Shown here one piece after another: positions 2,523-15,794 of a stretch of 20,491 nt of DNA. Each line of letters begins with the position of its first letter. Positions within the stretch are counted from its first letter, which is position 1. The stretch is taken from positions 1 through 20,491 of the IMG/VR virus record IMGVR_UViG_3300036851_000024; one strand, 5' to 3'. The notes below the pieces were generated by a model. The model searched no databases and had not been told where the DNA came from. It saw only the letters and a list, made by a program, of their open reading frames with translations. The translations under genes were made by a program, and so were the position numbers. Origin of the DNA: a virus.

Positions 2523-2600
2523 ATGCCTGAACCCAATCTGAGCGAAGTGGCCACCGTGTCGCTTCGCAGTCGGAGGCGGGAGCTTGCGGATTCCGTGACT
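2523..2600 (+). CDS. Major capsid protein, exon 1 (26 codons)
   Basis: The ATG has AGGAG six bases upstream and begins just after the scaffold stop. It encodes MPEPNLSEVATVSLRSRRRE followed by LADSVT. This matches the N-terminal arm of the capsid family whose uninterrupted members read roughly LADNVTxNNALL. The next codon in the genome is TAA (2601-2603), so without splicing only a 26-residue peptide would be made. The last seven bases of the exon (CGTGACT) pair with the intron's guide sequence at 2610-2616, ending in the U-G pair typical of a group I 5' splice site. The exon joins base 2600 to base 3387. Confidence 0.85.
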
Positions 2601-3386
2601 TAAGAACCGGGTCACGTTAAACTGGGTGAATTCGGTAAACGCTGTGATGCCAATACCGAGCCAAGCCGTGCATGTAAGGCGAAAGTCCCAGGGGCACGGA
2701 AGGTGTAACGACTAGGCGGTGACGAAAGGATAATCCGCCCACGAGCGCCCAGCAGTTTTGCAAAATGCCAGAGAGGAGAATTCCGAATGGCAATCATCTA
2801 CGGTCTTGTACACGTTCCATCTGGTCGCGTGTATGTCGGCTGCACGAAAGGAAAGCCGGCGAAGCGGCTTCGGGAACATCGGTGCCTGCTCAATCAAGGC
2901 AAGCATAATGAACCCGATCTTCAGCGAGATTGGCTGAAGGACGGAGAGGGCGCTTTCAAAATGAAGGTGCTTGAACAGCTTCCGATCGGCGTCAGCTTGG
3001 TGCTAAAACGTGAAGCGGAACTCCGTTGGATGGATTGCTTCCGCGGTCTTGGATTGCTCTACAATCAACGCAGGCTGTCATTCCAACTGACGCCTGAGGC
3101 GATGCGGAAGGGTGTTGCAAACGCCCAACTTAAGCCGGGCAATCGCTGGACTCCGGAAGTGAACGAGAAACGTAGATTGGCCATGCTTGGTCGTAAGCTC
3201 AATACTGGACCGAAGATCAGCGCCACCAAAAAGCGTCTTGGTCAAAGGCCATCACTTGAAGCAGCGCGGCTGGGCGGCATTGCCGCTTGCAAAAAGCGAT
3301 ATGCAAAAGCTGATGAGATAGTCTGATCACAAGCGAATGCGAAGCTTGTGACGCATCGGATAAAGAGCCGATACAGCGAACATCTG
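2601..3386 (+). ncRNA. Group I self-splicing intron (subgroup IA-like) in the capsid gene
   Basis: This 786-base intron excises itself by guanosine-initiated transesterification. Pairings I can draw by eye: P1 2594-2600 with 2610-2616, ending in the U2600-G2610 wobble; P3 2622-2628 (CTGGGTG) with 2746-2752 (CGCCCAG); P4 2631-2636 with 2655-2660; P6 2666-2671 (CCGTGC) with 2694-2699 (GCACGG); P7 2710-2714 (GACTA) with 3319-3323 (TAGTC); a P7.1/7.2-type hairpin 2715-2719 with 2735-2739; P8 2753-2761 with 3303-3312 (one bulge); P9 hairpins 3327-3334 with 3344-3351 and 3355-3359 with 3368-3372; and P10 2607-2609 with exon bases 3387-3389. The intron ends in G3386, as the family requires. Conserved P (AATTCGGTAAA) and Q (ACCGAGCCAAG) sequences are present. 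The hairpin between P7 and P3' suggests subgroup IA, common in phages. Confidence 0.92.
2787..3326 (+). CDS. GIY-YIG homing endonuclease inside the group I intron
   Basis: A 179-residue nuclease expected to cut intronless copies of the capsid gene, so that the intron is copied in by repair. Residues 3-5 (IIY) and 16-18 (YVG) are the two signature strands. R27, H31/H40 and E76 or E78 (in REAELRWMD) are candidates for the catalytic and metal-binding residues of the fold. The C-terminal half, with GRKLNTGPKISATKKRLGQ, resembles the small DNA-binding NUMOD3-type repeats of these enzymes. The ATG has GAGGAG eight bases upstream. The gene sits in the P8 loop, and its last codons (AKADEIV then TGA) overlap the P8 and P7 3' strands. 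Whether it is active cannot be told from sequence, but no key residue appears lost. Confidence 0.88.
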   Translation: MAIIYGLVHVPSGRVYVGCTKGKPAKRLREHRCLLNQGKHNEPDLQRDWLKDGEGAFKMKVLEQLPIGVSLVLKREAELRWMDCFRGLGLLYNQRRLSFQLTPEAMRKGVANAQLKPGNRWTPEVNEKRRLAMLGRKLNTGPKISATKKRLGQRPSLEAARLGGIAACKKRYAKADEIV

Positions 3387-4325
3387 CGGAATAACGCCCT
3401 ACTCACCCGCCTCAACTCCCGTGGCCGCTTTCGCGACTTCATCAGCGGCGGCCGAACCATCCTCGAGGAAATCGCCTACCAGGGCAACTCGACCTACACC
3501 CGGTATTCCGGATACCAGGTCATCAATATTGCGCCATCGACCAGTTTCACGTCGGCGGAATATCCGATACGGCAGGCTGCCGTCAGCGTCAGCATCTCCG
3601 GTCTGGAAGAGTTGCAGAACTCCGGACGGGAGCAGTCGATTGCCCTGCTCGATTCTCGCATGGAGCGGGCCGAGGAGGACTTCAAGAACGGTCTGTCCTT
3701 CGATGTCTACTCGGACGGAACGTTGCCGAACCAGATCGGCGGATTGCAGGCGGCGGTGCCGTTCGATCCAACCGTGGGTACGTACGGCGGCATCGATCGC
3801 GCGGCATGGGACTTCTGGCGCAACCAGAGATTCCGCGCGATCACGGACGGCGGCGCGGCGCTGAGCCCCGCCAACGTCTATCAGTACATGACGCAGCTCT
3901 ACGTGCGCTGCATCCGCGGCAACGATCGGCCCGATCTGATCGTCACCGACAACAATGGCTGGACTGTCTACAACCAGTCTCTGCACGCGATCCAGCGCAT
4001 CACCAACACCGACAGTGATGTCGGCAAGGCCGGGTTCATGAACTTGAAGTTCATGGATACCGATGTTGTGTTGGACGGCGCCTTCCAAGGCACGGCGGGA
4101 CAGGCGGCGTCGTCGGGCGTTCCGATTGGCGGCGTTCCCGCGTCAACGATGTGGTTCCTCAACAGCCGTTTCATCAGTTGGCGTCCACATCGCGATCGCA
4201 ACATCGAGCCACTCAACCCGGACCGGTTCAGCGTGAATCAGGATGCCATGGTTCGCATCCAGGCCTGGGCTGGAAACATGACTCTTCGCGGCGCCCTGTT
4301 CCAGGGCGTCCTGACCAACACGTAA
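3387..4325 (+). CDS. Major capsid protein, exon 2 (312 codons)
   Basis: This is the shell-forming major capsid protein. The frame continues from exon 1 in phase and gives a 338-residue product with the junction ADSVT-RNNALLTRL. Segments YQGNSTYTRYSGYQ, AAVSVSISGLEELQNSGRE and the AWDFWRNQRF region are the conserved body of this podovirus-type capsid family. The frame is also open upstream through intron sequence to a GTG at 3348, but that GTG lies in the P9 hairpin and would lack the conserved N-arm. The C-terminus (MTLRGALFQGVLTNT) is followed immediately by AAGGAGG, the ribosome site of the next gene. A decoration-type gene and a terminator follow. Confidence in the family is high; in the exact exon border it is good, because P1 and P10 pairing and protein alignment agree. 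Confidence 0.88.
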   Translation, partial: RNNALLTRLNSRGRFRDFISGGRTILEEIAYQGNSTYTRYSGYQVINIAPSTSFTSAEYPIRQAAVSVSISGLEELQNSGREQSIALLDSRMERAEEDFKNGLSFDVYSDGTLPNQIGGLQAAVPFDPTVGTYGGIDRAAWDFWRNQRFRAITDGGAALSPANVYQYMTQLYVRCIRGNDRPDLIVTDNNGWTVYNQSLHAIQRITNTDSDVGKAGFMNLKFMDTDVVLDGAFQGTAGQAASSGVPIGGVPASTMWFLNSRFISWRPHRDRNIEPLNPDRFSVNQDAMVRIQAWAGNMTLRGALFQGVLTNT

Positions 4326-9473: not shown

Positions 9474-10262
9474 ATGGGCGGTGGCGGCTCTCCCCCTCCG
9501 GCTCCGGACCCGGTAGCGACCGCCAAGGCGCAGGCCGCGGCAAACAAGGAAACTGCGATCACGCAGTACGGGCTCAATGCGACCAATCAGATCACGCCGG
9601 AAGGTACGCTCAGCTACAAGCAGATCGGCACTTGGCTGGATGGAACGCCGCGGTTCGAGTCCACGCAGGCGCTGTCTCCCGAGCAGCAGAAAATCTTTGA
9701 TCTATATCAGACGACCCAAGGCAACATCGGCCAGATCGGTGTTGATCAGTCCGCGCGCATAGGCGAGTTGCTCGGCAAGCCGGTTTCGCTGGGCAACGAA
9801 GCTAGCGAGGCCCGCATCAACGAATTGGCCCGCAAGCGCCTTGATCCGATGTTTGCGGAGCGTCGTGCCGCGCTCGACAACAAGTTGGCCAACCAGGGTA
9901 TCATGCCGGGCTCGGAAGCCTACGCGAGGGCCACCGGGCAATTCGGCGAGCAGGAGAATGACGCCTACAATCAACTGTTGTTGACCGGCCGCGCGCAAGC
10001 CAACCAGGAGCTATTGACCGAACGTAATCAGCCGCTGAACGAGATCAGTGCGCTGATGTCGGGCTCGCAGGTCAGTCAGCCGAATTGGCTCAACACTCCG
10101 CAATCGCAGGTGGCGCCAGTCGATTACATGGGCGCAGAGCAGAACAAATATGCCGGGCAGCTCAACGCCTACAATCAGGAGCAGGCGCGGTCGCAGGCCA
10201 ACATGGGCGGGCTCTACGGCCTCGGTGGCACGGCCCTGATGGCCGGAGCGATGTTCTTCTGA
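9474..10262 (+). CDS. Internal virion / DNA-ejection-type structural protein
   Basis: A 262-residue protein starting one base after the GNAT-like stop, with AAGGAGA upstream. The start MGGGGSPPPAPDPVATAKAQ is a signature of a virion protein family in podovirus-like phages, followed by TAITQYGLNATNQITPEG-like and TLSYKQIG segments. The middle is helical (ARINELARKRLDPMFAERRA, then LDNKLANQGIMPGSEAYARA), and the tail ends in the hydrophobic Gly-rich stretch GGLYGLGGTALMAGAMFF. An ejected or internal protein with a membrane-active C-terminus is plausible, since ejected proteins help DNA cross the envelope. The stop overlaps the next ATG. Confidence 0.68.
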   Translation: MGGGGSPPPAPDPVATAKAQAAANKETAITQYGLNATNQITPEGTLSYKQIGTWLDGTPRFESTQALSPEQQKIFDLYQTTQGNIGQIGVDQSARIGELLGKPVSLGNEASEARINELARKRLDPMFAERRAALDNKLANQGIMPGSEAYARATGQFGEQENDAYNQLLLTGRAQANQELLTERNQPLNEISALMSGSQVSQPNWLNTPQSQVAPVDYMGAEQNKYAGQLNAYNQEQARSQANMGGLYGLGGTALMAGAMFF

Positions 10263-11014
10263 TGTTGGGATCGCACAAGCATGCCGTTCTGCAATTCTCG
10301 GGTGGAAAGGATTCCACCGCACTGATGTATCTGGCGCGGCCGTGGCTCGACCGCATCACGGTGCTGTTCGCCGACACCGGCGCGACGTTTCCGCACTTGG
10401 TACGACATGTCGAGGACACGTGTACGCGGCTGGGCGCGAAGCTGGTGATCGTGAGACCGCCGGTCGATGTGATCCAGCACACGCGCGATCACGGCTTGCC
10501 GGCGGACATCGTGCCGATCGAGGCGACGGAATTGGCGCGAATGTTTCTCAAGCCGCCGCCAGCCGAAATCCTGCAGCCATACACGCAATGTTGTGCAGCC
10601 ATGCTATGGGCTCCGATGTTGCAATGGACGCGCGAGAACGACGTTGACTTGGTGCTGCGCGGATCGAAAGCGTCCGACCATCGCGTAGGCATTGGGCCAA
10701 ACGTCGAGGTCGAGGGCATCACCTACAAGTCGCCGCTGTGGGATTGGACGGACGATGACGTGTACGGCTATCTCACCGAGCAGGGCGCGCCGCTGCCTGA
10801 TCATTACAAGCACATCAACGACAGCCTCGACTGCTGGCTTTGCACCGCGCATCTCGCGCACCATGGCGATGAGAAGATGCGCTACATCCGCGACAACTAT
10901 CCGGAGTTCTGGCGCATCGTGGCCGGACGCATGGCGCGCGTGCAAGTCGTGCTCGATCACGAGATGGCCCGGATCAGACCCGCGATTGACGAGGTGAGCC
11001 ATGGCGCTCGCTGA
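10262..11014 (+). CDS. PAPS-reductase-family PP-loop protein with a CC...CxxC quartet
   Basis: A 250-residue protein whose ATG overlaps the previous TGA; a longer frame to 10085 is inside the upstream gene. Residues 13-19 are SGGKDST, the PP-loop that binds the nucleotide phosphate in adenine nucleotide alpha hydrolases. LFADTGATFPHLVRHVE and LVLRGSKASDHR match the PAPS reductase family. C110-C111 and C191/C194 (CWLC) form a CC-X79-CxxC quartet like the [4Fe-4S] ligands of APS reductases. However, the family's catalytic C-terminal Cys (ECGIH-type) is missing, as there is no Cys after residue 194. Simple sulfate reduction is therefore unlikely; sulfur transfer or nucleotide activation, for example DNA or RNA modification as in DndC-type relatives, is an alternative. 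It sits among ejection-protein genes. Confidence 0.8.
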   Translation: MLGSHKHAVLQFSGGKDSTALMYLARPWLDRITVLFADTGATFPHLVRHVEDTCTRLGAKLVIVRPPVDVIQHTRDHGLPADIVPIEATELARMFLKPPPAEILQPYTQCCAAMLWAPMLQWTRENDVDLVLRGSKASDHRVGIGPNVEVEGITYKSPLWDWTDDDVYGYLTEQGAPLPDHYKHINDSLDCWLCTAHLAHHGDEKMRYIRDNYPEFWRIVAGRMARVQVVLDHEMARIRPAIDEVSHGAR

Positions 11015-12506
11015 CGATTTCTATCAGGACCAGCGCAAGGCCAACCGGCGCATTGCCGAACTGCTGGCCACGGAGGGCAGGAGCAGCGCACCGACGTCGT
11101 CGCATTTGGTGGGCGCCAATCGGGTTCTGCAGGGGCTGCTTGGCGGTGTCATGATGAACCGGGCCGACGCCGCGGACAAGGCGCGCCAGGATCGCATTAC
11201 GGCGGCGTTGGCTGGCATGCCGGGACTGGGCGGCGAGACAGAGGGCATACCAGCTTCTGCGGCCGGTCCGATCTATGGCTCCGATTTCAGCACCCGGGCG
11301 CCGGACGGCACGGACCGCAGCATCAGCGCGGGCCCGCGGTCGCCAAGTTTTGGTCCGGTCACCACGGCCTCGCCAGAGCCGCCCGTCACGCCATCGCCCT
11401 ACAAGCTCGCCGGCATGCCGTCCCCCACGAATTCGCAAGACACCTTCCGCACGCCGCTGGACGCCATGTCGCCGCGCGAGCAGGGCTTGTCCGCGCTGCG
11501 CACGGCGATGGGCGGGCAACCGCCGATGATGGGCGCCACACCACCCGGCGCCATCCCGGTGCCGACGCAGGCCATCAGGCCGCCAGCTCCAGCCGCGCCA
11601 CCGCCCATGGCGCTTGCGCCCACTGCCGCCCCGCCTGCGGCCGCTGCGGGTTTGGGGATCGATCCGGCCCAAGCCAAATATATCAAGGGCCTGATGACGA
11701 GCGGCGAGCCGCAGCTGCAAGAATATGGCATGAAGCTCTATCAGGCGGCCCAGCAGCGTGCGCTGACATTGGCGGCAGAGAAACCGACGTTCGAAGAGAT
11801 TGGCATCGACCCGCAGACTGGCCAGCCGGTGAAAGGTTTTGTCGATTCGAGACGGCGCAGCATTGAGCCGTATCAATTGCCGGCAGCAACCGGCGGCGCA
11901 CCGAGCACGATTCCGCCGGTGCCGCCCGGGATAGATCCCAAGGTCTGGCGCGAGGCGCACAGCAAGCGCGCCGCTGGCGAGGCCATGCCTGGCACCAGCG
12001 AAGATGCAATGAAGCTGCGTAAGGAAGTGCAGGACTTGCCGAGCTACAAGAACCTCGCGCAGTCGGCCCCGGTCTACAAGTCGATGCTGGAGGCCGCCGG
12101 ACGCGACACCCGTGCGTCCGACGTGAACCTGATCTACGGCATGGCCAAGTTGATGGACCCCGGTTCGGTTGTCCGGGAATCGGAAATGTCCGTAGCACAG
12201 GCTATCGCTACGCTGCCGCAGAACCTGCAGGCGCAGATCAAGTCTCAAGTGACGGCCGGCGGACGGCTGCCTCCGGAAGTCAGGGCCGGCATCATGGAGG
12301 AGGCTTACAGCCGGATAAACGCGTACCGCGGCATGTTCGACCAGGACGCGGGAATGTTCCGCGAGATTGCAAAGAGCGGTCGCTTCAATGAAGCGCACGT
12401 GCTCCCGAACTTCGGCGAGTTCAAGCCGTTCACACCGCCGGTTGCCGGTGCGCCGACGGCGGATGACGCTATTGCGGAATTGCGACGCCGGAAGCTGATC
12501 CCATGA
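11001..12506 (+). CDS. Internal virion / DNA-ejection-type protein (501 aa)
   Basis: The ATG lies 14 bases inside the preceding gene, consistent with coupled translation. The N-terminal 75 residues are helical and polar (DDFYQDQRKANRRIAELLAT). Residues of about 90-220 are Pro/Ala/Gly-rich low complexity with many Met-Pro steps. Residues of about 225-500 are mostly helical (GIDPAQAKYIKGLMTSGEPQ, then LQEYGMKLYQAAQQRALTLA) and end in DDAIAELRRRKLIP, a motif I see often at the C-terminus of phage virion proteins. Size, helical composition and position between two other such genes suggest a protein injected with the DNA. I do not recognise a named family. Confidence 0.62.
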   Translation: MALADDFYQDQRKANRRIAELLATEGRSSAPTSSHLVGANRVLQGLLGGVMMNRADAADKARQDRITAALAGMPGLGGETEGIPASAAGPIYGSDFSTRAPDGTDRSISAGPRSPSFGPVTTASPEPPVTPSPYKLAGMPSPTNSQDTFRTPLDAMSPREQGLSALRTAMGGQPPMMGATPPGAIPVPTQAIRPPAPAAPPPMALAPTAAPPAAAAGLGIDPAQAKYIKGLMTSGEPQLQEYGMKLYQAAQQRALTLAAEKPTFEEIGIDPQTGQPVKGFVDSRRRSIEPYQLPAATGGAPSTIPPVPPGIDPKVWREAHSKRAAGEAMPGTSEDAMKLRKEVQDLPSYKNLAQSAPVYKSMLEAAGRDTRASDVNLIYGMAKLMDPGSVVRESEMSVAQAIATLPQNLQAQIKSQVTAGGRLPPEVRAGIMEEAYSRINAYRGMFDQDAGMFREIAKSGRFNEAHVLPNFGEFKPFTPPVAGAPTADDAIAELRRRKLIP

Positions 12507-14089
12507 CCGAACTGCGCGACATGAGCAAGCTGTCGGAGCAGGAGCTGTTGGCGATCATCGCCAAGCAGAATTCGCCCGCGCAGATGGCCGAGACATTGAC
12601 GGATATCGGCAAGTCGGCCGGCGTCGGGCTTGGCGAGGCCGCGATCGGCATGGCTGGCCTGCCGGGCGATGTGCAGGCGCTGGCTGTCAAGGGCGCCGAT
12701 TGGGTTGGCGGAAAGGGTGCCCGCGTCGGCATCCCGACGCCGATGCCAACCTCCGGGACAATCAAATCCAGAGTCGAGGAATTGACCGGCCCGTTCTATG
12801 AGCCGCAGACTGGCGCCGGCAAGTTCGCGCGCGGCATTGGCGAGCAGGCGCCCGGCGTGTTGTTTCCTGGCGGTCCGGTTCGGCGTGCCATCAACGTGAT
12901 TGCGCCGGCGGCGGGCGCAGAAGCTGGTGAGGCGCTGACGGGCGGTCCGGGCGGCCGAGTCGCCGGAGCCTTGATTGGCGGCCTGGCGGGTACGCGCGGC
13001 ATCACGCCAGCGCCGGCGACGCCAGAGCGCGCGCGGCTCGCGGCAATCCTTGAGGGTGAGGGCGTCCCGCTCACCGCAGGACAACGCACCGGCAACAAGC
13101 CGCTGCAATGGTTCGAGCAGGCGGCGGCGGATACGCCGTTCGCGGCGGGCCGGGCGGCGGCGCTGAATGAGGCGACCCAGCGAGGATTCTCCGGCGCGGT
13201 GATGCGGCGCATCGGCGCGCCCGGTGATGAGATTGCAACCGGCGATGCCGTGCAGCGCGCAGCTCGTAACTTGAGCACAACGTTCGAGGACTTGTCGGCG
13301 CGGAACACGCTGACTGCCGATCGACAATTTGCGAACGATCTGACACAAACGGCCCGACAATATATTGACGACGTGATCCCGTCACAGCGGACGCAAGGCC
13401 GACAGAACATCCAAGTCATAATGAATGATGTGATGCAGGAGCTGATCAGCAACGGATATCGAATGTCCGGAGAAACATATCAGGCCACGCGCTCACGACT
13501 CGGTCGTATGGCCGATGGCGTCCGGGAATCCGACCCCCAGTTGTCGCGTGCCATCACTGGAATCCAAGGCGCGCTCGACGATGCCATGACGCGATCGATC
13601 TCGCCCGCGGACCAAGCGGCGTGGGCAGAGGCGCGGGTGCAGTGGCGCAATTTGAAGGCGCTGGAAAAGGCGATGAGCGGGGCCGGCTCATCCGTCGCCG
13701 AAGGCTTTGTGTCGCCATCGCAATTGCGCGGCGCCGTCGCCGGTCAGAACCGCACGGGGTATGCCCGCGGACAGGGTGATATGGCCGATCTCGCGAGGGC
13801 TGGCGAGGCGGTGCTGCGACCGTTGCCGCAGTCCGGCACCGCGCCGCGGCAGGCGGCTGGCAATCTATTCGCCTCAATGGCGGGTGGCTTGGCCGGGCAT
13901 TCGACTGGTATGGGGCTTGAGGGCGTGCTGGCCGGCATGGCCGCCCCGGCGGTCGCCGGCCGCGTCATGCTCTCTCGTCCGATGCAAGCCTATCTCGGCA
14001 ATCAACTATTGCCCATGACGCGCGGGGAGATGGCTCGCCGGCTCACGGTGCAACAGCTTCTGGCCCGTCCTGATCAGGGCGCCGAATAG
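12503..14089 (+). CDS. Internal virion / DNA-ejection-type protein (528 aa)
   Basis: It starts in an ATGA overlap with the previous gene. The N-terminus (LSEQELLAIIAKQ) is followed by a Gly/Ala-rich part of about residues 30-180 (GVGLGEAAIGMAGLPGDVQA and GGPGGRVAGALIGGLAGTRG) that could insert into or cross membranes. Next comes a helical and coiled region (ITGIQGALDDAMTRSISPAD, then QAAWAEARVQWRNLKALEKA) that is common in large phage ejection proteins. A second hydrophobic Gly/Ala region near the C-terminus (GLEGVLAGMAAPAVAGRVML) precedes a basic end. This fits the set of ejected proteins that form a trans-envelope channel. The last 84 bases are overlapped by a small minus-strand gene. Confidence 0.62.
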   Translation: MTELRDMSKLSEQELLAIIAKQNSPAQMAETLTDIGKSAGVGLGEAAIGMAGLPGDVQALAVKGADWVGGKGARVGIPTPMPTSGTIKSRVEELTGPFYEPQTGAGKFARGIGEQAPGVLFPGGPVRRAINVIAPAAGAEAGEALTGGPGGRVAGALIGGLAGTRGITPAPATPERARLAAILEGEGVPLTAGQRTGNKPLQWFEQAAADTPFAAGRAAALNEATQRGFSGAVMRRIGAPGDEIATGDAVQRAARNLSTTFEDLSARNTLTADRQFANDLTQTARQYIDDVIPSQRTQGRQNIQVIMNDVMQELISNGYRMSGETYQATRSRLGRMADGVRESDPQLSRAITGIQGALDDAMTRSISPADQAAWAEARVQWRNLKALEKAMSGAGSSVAEGFVSPSQLRGAVAGQNRTGYARGQGDMADLARAGEAVLRPLPQSGTAPRQAAGNLFASMAGGLAGHSTGMGLEGVLAGMAAPAVAGRVMLSRPMQAYLGNQLLPMTRGEMARRLTVQQLLARPDQGAE

Positions 14090-14173
14090 CTGGTTGATTA
14101 AGCCAGATAGAATAATTCCGCCGACGCCGACGGCGATACAAAACGCGGCCCATTTCAAGACGACGTACCACAT
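14006..14173 (-). CDS. Small minus-strand membrane protein (55 aa)
   Basis: Start ATG is at 14173 on the minus strand, with AAGGGG about eight bases upstream. It encodes MWYVVLKWAAFCIAVGVGGI and then ILSGLINQLFGALI before a basic tail, a strong single long membrane segment or hairpin, rare for a chance reading frame. It fills the 96-base gap before the HNH gene and runs 84 bases into the antisense of the ejection-protein gene. The same strand forms a longer open frame to 14320, but that part lies inside the HNH gene. No family is recognised. A holin- or antiholin-like role cannot be shown. A similar minus-strand membrane gene occurs at 16252-16443. Confidence 0.42.
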   Translation of the reverse strand: MWYVVLKWAAFCIAVGVGGIILSGLINQLFGALIRTGQKLLHREPASHLPARHGQ

Positions 14174-14185
14174 AGGAGGCACCCC

Positions 14186-14770
14186 TTGGTGTCGATGTTG
14201 CATAATACATGCAAACAATGCGAACGGCCAGTGAGGGCGCGCGGTCTTTGCCATCGTCACTATTATGCAGCGCGGCGGAAGGGCATCCTTGAGCAACATG
14301 CCAAAGATCACCCCATGCATCGTCCTCTATTAGAGAGGATGCAGACGAAGACTTCTATTCAAGAGAATGGTTGTTGGTTGTGGCTTGGTTTTAAGCGCCA
14401 CGATGGCTATGGATTGATTTGGTTGAATGGCAAACATCAGCGTGCGCATCGCGTTGCGTTTGAGCACCGCAACGGAAAAGTCGATCCGGAAGCCATCATT
14501 TGTCATCGTTGCGACAATCCCTCTTGCATCAATCCGGATCATATGTTCGTCGGAACAACCGCCGACAATATCCGTGATTGTGTGGTGAAGAAGAGGCATG
14601 CGTTTGGTGAACGAAACGGTCATGCGAAACTGACCTCTGCACAAGTCGCGGCAATCCGCGCAAATAGCATTGCCACTCATCAAGCTTTGGCCGAGCAATT
14701 CGGCGTGCGCCAAAGCACTGTCAGTCGGATCAGAGCTGGAACGCGCCGCGCTTTAGATGGCGCGGCCTAA
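14186..14770 (+). CDS. Free-standing HNH homing endonuclease
   Basis: A 194-residue nuclease. AGGAGG at 14174-14179 is followed by TTG at 14186 (six bases) and GTG at 14189 (nine bases); either may start it, and an ATG follows at 14195. Residues 9-25 have a CxxC...CxxH pattern (CKQCERPVRARGLCHRHYYA) that may bind zinc. The HNH core is HRVAFEHRNGKVDPEAIICH, then RCDNPSCINPDHMFVGT (HNH_3-type), with the His and Asn residues intact. The C-terminal third, LTSAQVAAIRANSIATHQAL then AEQFGVRQSTVSRIRAG, is a helix-turn-helix for DNA recognition. GC is clearly lower than the flanking late genes. Both neighbouring genes look complete and no intron fold is visible, so this is an intergenic homing gene that spreads by cutting unoccupied sites. 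Confidence 0.85.
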   Translation: MVSMLHNTCKQCERPVRARGLCHRHYYAARRKGILEQHAKDHPMHRPLLERMQTKTSIQENGCWLWLGFKRHDGYGLIWLNGKHQRAHRVAFEHRNGKVDPEAIICHRCDNPSCINPDHMFVGTTADNIRDCVVKKRHAFGERNGHAKLTSAQVAAIRANSIATHQALAEQFGVRQSTVSRIRAGTRRALDGAA

Positions 14771-14792
14771 GTCATTGATATAGGAGGGTTTT

Positions 14793-15794
14793 TTGCCCCG
14801 CAGTGGAAGTGGTGTCTACACGCTACCGGATACTATTCAACCAGCCACGCTGGCCGATGCCAACGAGGTGCAGGCTATCAATGTCGATATCGCGTCGGCG
14901 TTGACGGGGTCGGTCGCGTCGGACGGGCAGACGCCGATCACCGGGCAACTGCGTGGCTTCGTCAGCGCCACCCCCGGCTACTCGTTCAACGGCGATCTCA
15001 ACACCGGCTTCGGCTCGGACGTCCCCGAGGAAGCCTACATTCAGGCCAACGGCACCAAGACGGTGCGCGTCACCGCGGCCGGTATCACGGTCACCGGCAC
15101 TATGACACTCTCTGGGTTGCTGACTGTTGCGACCGGAGGTGTGGCTATTACGGCTGGTGTCTTTACCGCGCCGGTGGGGAGTGCAGGAGCGCCATCGTAT
15201 ACGTTCGCCGGGGATTTAAACTCAGGTTTTTATTGGATTGGCGCCGATAACATCGGCGCTGCCGTCAATGGCGCCAAGGTTCTGGATATTGCAACAACTG
15301 GACTAGGCATCACGGGCGCCATCACTGCCACGACAAATATTACTGCCACCGCCGCAATCAACGGCGCAACTGTTGCCGGCGCCATGGTGGCGACGCAGGC
15401 GAACATGGAGACCGGGACTGCCACCAATTTGATCGTGACGCCGGGCCGACAGGTCTTCCATCCAAAGCATACCAAAGCATGGTGCAGATTTAGCGGGACC
15501 GGTACTCCGGCCGTGACTTCCGGCAGCGGCGTATCTTCTATCACCGATAATGGAGTGGGTGATTACACCATCAATTGGACGACAGCGTTTGCAAGTGCCA
15601 CCGACTATGCCTGGCTGGCAATGCCCTCAGAGGTGGCAGGGGGAAGCACTTTAGCCGGAGCGGATCGCACAGCGGGTGGCGCCGCCGCCGCACCGATAGC
15701 TGGCGCCGTGCGGCTGACGACCTTTGCCTTCCCCGGAGGGGCCGCGGTCGATCCGGGCCGGATATATGTTGCGGCATGGGGGGATTTATCATGA
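14793..15794 (+). CDS. Tail fibre / tail spike-type protein
   Basis: A 333-residue protein starting at TTG, five bases after AGGAGG at 14782-14787. The start MPRSGSGVYTLPDTIQPATL is a known N-terminal form of phage tail fibres that attaches to the tail. Two repeats follow: GYSFNGDLNTGF and SYTFAGDLNSGFYWIGAD, each leading into a beta strand set (KTVRVTAAGITVTG and AKVLDIATTGLGITG). This is a beta-helical or trimeric fibre pattern. Near the C-terminus, a GRQVFHPKHTKAWCRFSG segment is a fibre-tip-like motif. The stop overlaps the next ATG. It likely binds the host surface; the receptor cannot be inferred. Confidence 0.75.
   Translation: MPRSGSGVYTLPDTIQPATLADANEVQAINVDIASALTGSVASDGQTPITGQLRGFVSATPGYSFNGDLNTGFGSDVPEEAYIQANGTKTVRVTAAGITVTGTMTLSGLLTVATGGVAITAGVFTAPVGSAGAPSYTFAGDLNSGFYWIGADNIGAAVNGAKVLDIATTGLGITGAITATTNITATAAINGATVAGAMVATQANMETGTATNLIVTPGRQVFHPKHTKAWCRFSGTGTPAVTSGSGVSSITDNGVGDYTINWTTAFASATDYAWLAMPSEVAGGSTLAGADRTAGGAAAAPIAGAVRLTTFAFPGGAAVDPGRIYVAAWGDLS

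Follow-up and report, generated by a model that had tools for sequence, protein, structure and literature searches.

An uncultured tailed phage with a group I intron, carrying a GIY-YIG endonuclease gene, in its major capsid gene, and the relatives of this intron in phage capsid genes

In an uncultured tailed phage, the Mx8-type major capsid gene is almost certainly split by a group I intron that harbours a GIY-YIG endonuclease gene in its P8 loop and belongs to an intron lineage found almost only in capsid genes. The first-pass annotation had proposed a group I intron in the major capsid gene, and the proposal is borne out by a sister phage with the exact empty site, a covariance-model match, a complete catalytic core, fitting P1 and P10 pairings, and covariation at 28 of 39 predicted pairs. 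The DNA analysed (the window) is a virus record of 20,491 bases from an uncultured bacterial virus, and all positions below refer to this whole window. The anatomy of the locus is as follows:

2523..2600, + strand: capsid exon 1, 26 codons, contiguous with exon 2 in the intronless sister contig L009 and in 80 relatives
2601..3386, + strand: group I intron, 786 nt, opening with an in-frame TAA and with G as its last base
2595-2600/2610-2615, + strand: P1 (GTGACT/GGTCAC), with the U.G pair at the 5′ splice site; folds as predicted
2607-2609/3387-3389, + strand: P10, CCG pairing with CGG of exon 2, from the sequence
2622..2752, + strand: 5′ half of the catalytic core, for which the minimum-energy fold gives P3, P4, P5, P6a, and P7.1
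2622-2628/2746-2752, + strand: P3, in the minimum-energy fold
2631-2637/2654-2660, + strand: P4, in the minimum-energy fold
2666-2671/2694-2699, + strand: P6a, in the minimum-energy fold; P5 and P6 also lie in this core half
2710-2714/3319-3323, + strand: P7, its 3′ strand downstream of the endonuclease-filled P8
2715-2719/2735-2739, + strand: P7.1, in the minimum-energy fold; covaries in relatives
2753..3312, + strand: P8 element (2753-2762/3302-3312, one bulge), from the sequence; covaries in relatives, its loop filled by the endonuclease ORF
2766..2792, + strand: hairpin over the endonuclease ribosome-binding site and start codon (stems 2766-2770/2788-2792 and 2775-2777/2782-2784; z-score -3.4)
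2787..3326, + strand: GIY-YIG homing endonuclease ORF, 179 aa, in the P8 loop, its 3′ end overlapping P8 and P7
3319..3386, + strand: intron 3′ region with the P7 3′ strand, P9, P9.1, and the terminal G 3386, from sequence, fold, and covariance model R1
3327-3334/3344-3351, + strand: P9, from sequence and fold
3355-3359/3368-3372, + strand: P9.1, from sequence and fold
3387..4325, + strand: capsid exon 2, 312 codons plus stop; phrog_9953 major head protein, E 5.5e-92

Translated from ATG 2523, exon 1 reads MPEPNLSEVATVSLRSRRRELADSVT and ends at the stop TAA 2601-2603, while the capsid frame picks up in phase at CGG 3387 (RNNALL...) and runs to its stop at 4325. The joined exons encode 338 residues that match the phrog_9953 major head protein profile with an E of 1.4e-101 over profile positions 4-328 of 329, a full-length match that identifies the predicted spliced product as an Mx8-type major capsid protein. 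Its named relatives are the capsid proteins of Bradyrhizobium phage ppBjS10J-1 (49.7% identical to the exon 2 protein) and Myxococcus phage Mx8, both at about 50% identity. The capsid frame is uninterrupted in 80 of the 80 nearest virus contigs, and intronless homologues start 26 codons before the first residue of exon 2, exactly the length of exon 1. The comparison with uninterrupted homologues suggested in the first-pass annotation agrees in both exon 1 length and junction, and the joined sequence ADSVT-RNNALL that it had put forward is the one predicted for the spliced product.

The insertion itself can be placed to the base with L009, a sister phage contig that encodes a capsid protein 98% identical to that of the window and is about 90% identical in DNA across a 3.9-kb stretch around the capsid gene. 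At its empty site, ...GTGACT is joined directly to CGGAATAAC, where the window has 786 extra bases. The boundary is unique, because sliding the insert by one base in either direction destroys the match to L009, and it places a U before the intron and a G at the intron end. The previously proposed end of the capsid codons at TAA 2601, the in-phase restart at 3387, and the 786-base gap are therefore right to the base. An HMM finds only one splice pair that fits the window intron, predicting the exon junction GTGACT/CGGAAT and the ligated exons GTGACTCGGAAT. The whole 25-kb L009 record contains no match to the intron model, and no foreign co-conversion tract is visible around the insertion, the last 60 nt of exon 1 being identical to L009. 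An intein was rejected as the nature of the insert, its first codon being a stop.

The insert bears all the hallmarks of a group I intron, namely the P3-P8 and P4-P6 domains with P7, covariation, a P1 in which the U pairs with G and whose 5′ side is formed by the last 6 nt of exon 1, a terminal G, and P10. Every pairing listed in the first-pass annotation (P1, P3, P4, P6, P7, P8, P9, and P10) was recovered in the sequence or fold, together with P5, P7.1, and P9.1. The Rfam search that it had called for gave a match to RF00028 of 35.1 bits (E 9.7e-6, span 2554-3343), short of the curated gathering score of 50 bits; this low score is probably due to the 540-nt endonuclease ORF inside the intron, since ORF-less relatives reach 54-81 bits, above the cut-off. 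A covariance model, R1, was built from 24 ORF-less relatives with the window left out, and matches the window with 117.3 bits (E 7e-40) in the 5′ half and 20.9 bits (E 3e-5) in the 3′ half (3267-3374), with no matches in the 80 intronless relatives (600 kb). Compensatory changes occur among these 24 relatives in the 28 pairs noted above, and P7 is invariant. The support for the ribozyme is thus comparative, since the window intron's own fold is no more stable than that of shuffled sequence (z -0.6) and its Rfam score lies below the gathering cut-off. The single extra pairing P7.1 between P7 and P3, which marks subgroup IA introns, probably places the intron in subgroup IA; no P7.2 was seen in the window intron.

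The 179-residue product of the ORF in the P8 loop, on which the first-pass annotation was silent, matches a PHROG homing endonuclease profile with an E of 1.7e-8 and by itself scores just under the Pfam cut-off, and the profile of its family matches the catalytic domain of I-TevI (1MK0) with an E of 1.4e-15. Relatives 29-56% identical to it lie in 14 related introns of the same capsid family, and a single-sequence search found none in prokaryote genomes. Y5, Y16, G18, R27, H31, and E78 are invariant in the family and N93 nearly so, a pattern that identifies a GIY-YIG motif with predicted catalytic Arg, Glu, and Asn. The hairpin over the start site is kept in 14 introns (the window and 13 others), with 94 of 98 cells paired, a value equalled by 2 of 20,000 shuffles, and both of its stems show compensatory changes although the protein differs by half. 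An in-frame stop (TAA) also opens all 14 introns with a mapped junction at the codon 25/26 site, a count from which L153 was left out for its ambiguous first junction. The first-codon TAA and the start hairpin would together keep ribosomes off the ribozyme core, and the presence and absence of the intron at one site (window versus L009) is consistent with homing.

The distribution of the lineage was surveyed by scanning IMG/VR DNA with the intron core alone (AACGACTAGNNGGTGACGAAAG), a search blind to the host gene. This yielded 65 virus contigs besides the window, with no occurrence of the core in 84,980 prokaryote genomes and no relatives of the intron in plasmids. The host is a major capsid gene in 64 of the 66 introns (window included), distributed over Mx8-type capsid genes (25, including the window), SU10-type capsid genes (PF17236; 35), Phage_capsid_3 (PF13252; two), and the head family phrog_1357 (two); the two remaining hosts have no assigned gene. 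The host genes of L130, L131, L162, and L168 were left unnamed. No cross-match among these four capsid families was found with the profiles used; tailed-phage capsid proteins share one ancient fold. The introns occupy at least 13 positions overall. Of these, seven or more lie in the Mx8-type gene (near codons 25, 26, 58, 64-66, 69, 123, and 137) and six or more in the SU10-type gene, and a single gene can contain as many as five introns. In the two Mx8-type contigs richest in intron matches (91 and 31 kb), the matches alternate with capsid exons, of which the 31-kb contig has four. A relaxed core pattern added 24 contigs, more than half of which had no fitting P7 partner and were rejected as chance matches in coding sequence.

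Several individual members deserve mention. In the 90.6-kb record of L153, five introns of this lineage divide the capsid gene, at 12318-15134 (L212), into six exons. In the annotated complete phage C72C1 (L181, OQ984150), a group I intron scoring 82 bits interrupts an SU10-type capsid gene at 1147-2348, which is listed as two major head protein genes. Four contigs (L133, L147, L155, and L156) carry, upstream of the core, an HNH endonuclease ORF that extends into the 5′ portion of the ribozyme, an arrangement different from that of the GIY-YIG genes in the P8 loop.

With at least four capsid families and at least 13 positions represented, and the lineage absent elsewhere in the contigs searched whole, it is fairly probable that the lineage is specialised on capsid genes, which would steer or retain it. 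Something about these genes would then be responsible, the candidates being their late and abundant mRNA, a conserved target, and an intolerance of imprecise loss.

A competing explanation, to which we give a considerable chance though short of an even one, is that group I introns of environmental phages generally reside more often in capsid genes than in any other host gene and that this lineage is not special. It draws on the capsid introns of crAss-like phages (PMC7886860) and on a comparison set of our own: a crAss-type core used as a control pattern gave no matches, and a second control core variant used instead gave 18 contigs with group I introns, six of them with confirmed capsid hosts. 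The contrast between the lineage and the control is weakened because the control set also holds capsid introns. However, in the other 12 contigs of the same set no capsid gene was recognised as the host, and some of these introns lie in tRNA-rich stretches; the nearest isolate relatives of the core lie in Proteus phage terL, Bacillus phage SP-15 recA, DNA polymerase I of the crAss-like phage cr116_1, and psbA of cyanophage S-PM2. Three comparison contigs (L193, L194, and L200) have their group I introns in tRNA-gene-rich surroundings, and some of these may interrupt tRNA genes. Capsid hosts are common in the wider group, and a preference for them may extend to phage group I introns more broadly; what characterises the window lineage is its near-exclusivity.

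It is unlikely that the preference is an artefact of contigs being recognised by their capsid genes and of a few old insertions being inherited. Points in favour of such an artefact are the shortness of many contigs, the near-identity of several introns, and the clustering of host families in the ribozyme tree. Ascertainment was checked by applying the intron model to the complete records of the 21 matching contigs between 30 and 91 kb in length, and every match fell into one cluster per contig at the capsid gene, at most about 3 kb wide. No member of the lineage was found in terminase or polymerase genes, though these also mark contigs as viral, and the spread over four families and many positions, with close kin at different positions, likewise argues against an artefact.

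In a ribozyme tree, the window intron is sister to that of L105 (97/91), which sits at codon 58 of the same gene rather than codon 26 and carries a different GIY-YIG gene, 29% identical to that of the window; the two join L153 and L102 (98/91), the latter an intron at the same position as that of the window. There is therefore a partial decoupling of ribozyme, endonuclease, and position. Since support is weak at many of the deeper branches and the introns of the SU10 and Mx8 groups for the most part fall together by group, the shifts between positions or families that the tree suggests are claimed to be repeated but not frequent, and its many weak branches equally qualify the suggested horizontal movement between capsid families. 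The N-terminal site has two insertion points 3 nt apart, one after a Val codon (L092, L093, L098, L104, and others) and one after the next codon (window, L102, and L173). Across this 3-nt offset (window 2600/2601 versus L092, L093, L098, and L104), the endonucleases are related and P1 is refitted to each site. In L150, one intron joins capsid exons at profile positions 98 and 117, skipping about 18 codons, as would result from recombination between two adjacent introns with loss of the intervening exon; it could also be an assembly chimera.

Based on these features, we propose that the transcript folds and that guanosine attacks the 5′ splice site after U2600, whereupon the freed exon 1 would join C3387 to restore the 338-residue capsid protein. 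Translating ribosomes on exon 1 would halt at the TAA that forms the first intron codon, while the conserved hairpin would hide the endonuclease start site; stop and hairpin together would shield the ribozyme core and so protect the splicing of a gene whose product is needed in bulk. When a co-infecting phage has an intronless capsid gene, the endonuclease probably cuts that gene near codon 26, and repair of the cut would copy the intron into it. The ribozyme itself is a member of a phage-borne lineage that resides almost only in major capsid genes and would have moved between positions and capsid families. The capsid gene would, on this sequence-derived scheme, depend on ribozyme activity, as the first-pass annotation had supposed.

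The intron might instead be a decayed, inactive copy in a defective phage, as the origin of the window from a metagenomic contig of an uncultured virus would allow, but this is very improbable given that all core elements, P1, P10, and the endonuclease ORF with its catalytic residues are intact and that the capsid, portal, lysozyme, and tail-type ORFs are open. Scarcely credible is the production of capsid protein without splicing from the in-frame GTG 3348 inside the intron, the insert being a remnant: the ORF 3348-4325 (325 aa, with peptides predicted from THRIKSRYSEHLR) is open and runs into exon 2, but its GTG lies within P9 and lacks a Shine-Dalgarno-like stretch, the first 13 residues would be encoded by the intron, and the 26 residues of exon 1 that it would forgo are conserved in 80 relatives, with the last 60 nt unchanged in L009.

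Elsewhere in the window, a free-standing HNH endonuclease gene (PF13392, E 1.4e-10) lies between structural genes at 14186-14770, and a PAPS reductase-like gene (PF01507, E 3.1e-16) lies in the phage structural region at 10085-11014.

Mobile introns favour conserved genes. The capsid preference described here is an extreme case, in which nearly all known sites of one lineage are in the gene for the protein required in most copies. It raises the questions of how obligatory RNA splicing can be tolerated in a gene that is essential and highly expressed, and of what steers a mobile intron to one functional gene class across unrelated sequences. In addition, capsid genes that are split escape annotation or are recorded in pieces, as in C72C1, so that capsid-based phage surveys lose such phages.

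As a group I intron that carries a homing endonuclease gene, the finding is of an ordinary kind, and its host gene is uncommon but not unprecedented. The first-pass annotation had regarded capsid hosts as less common than others, which holds for reported cases, although precedents exist in LittleE, Tuc2009, and the crAss-like phages. The surprising part, and what is new, is a lineage nearly confined to capsid genes, single capsid introns of phages being already known; no group I lineage confined to phage capsid genes is described in the literature searched, a scope outside which most subscription journals lay. The nearest isolate relatives, in terL, recA, DNA polymerase I, and psbA, share 70-90% identity in the core over short stretches only, and their hosts are not capsid genes. 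The many group I introns of jumbo gut phages are likewise reported in terL, nrdD, and polymerase genes (PMC12363816), while the spliceosomal introns in virion genes of Mirusviruses offer a parallel (PMC12768974).

The closest precedent is the capsid intron of mycobacteriophage LittleE, whose splicing was shown by RT-PCR and protein sequencing (PMC3706429); a capsid intron of lactococcal phage Tuc2009 is cited in the same paper. Like the window, LittleE has an intron in the major capsid gene (about 820 nt) with U at the exon end and G at the intron end, an endonuclease gene inside it, and an empty site in close relatives, but that endonuclease is LAGLIDADG-like and on the opposite strand, the capsid family is another one, and the intron is there described only as 'most likely group I' (PMC3706429). 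The Delta and Zeta groups of crAss-like phages also have group I introns in the capsid gene, several per gene, but differ in having many introns in polymerase, primase, and other genes as well (PMC7886860). The arrangement of the endonuclease gene is reminiscent of T4 td/I-TevI, where the gene of a GIY-YIG endonuclease likewise occupies a loop of the ribozyme and extends at its 3′ end into the core, and a hairpin covers the ribosome-binding site, whereas the T4 host gene encodes thymidylate synthase and a late promoter frees the start site (PMC2988022). Hairpins of this type prevent the early translation of intron endonucleases in T4, where splicing is reduced in a hairpin mutant (PMC2988022).
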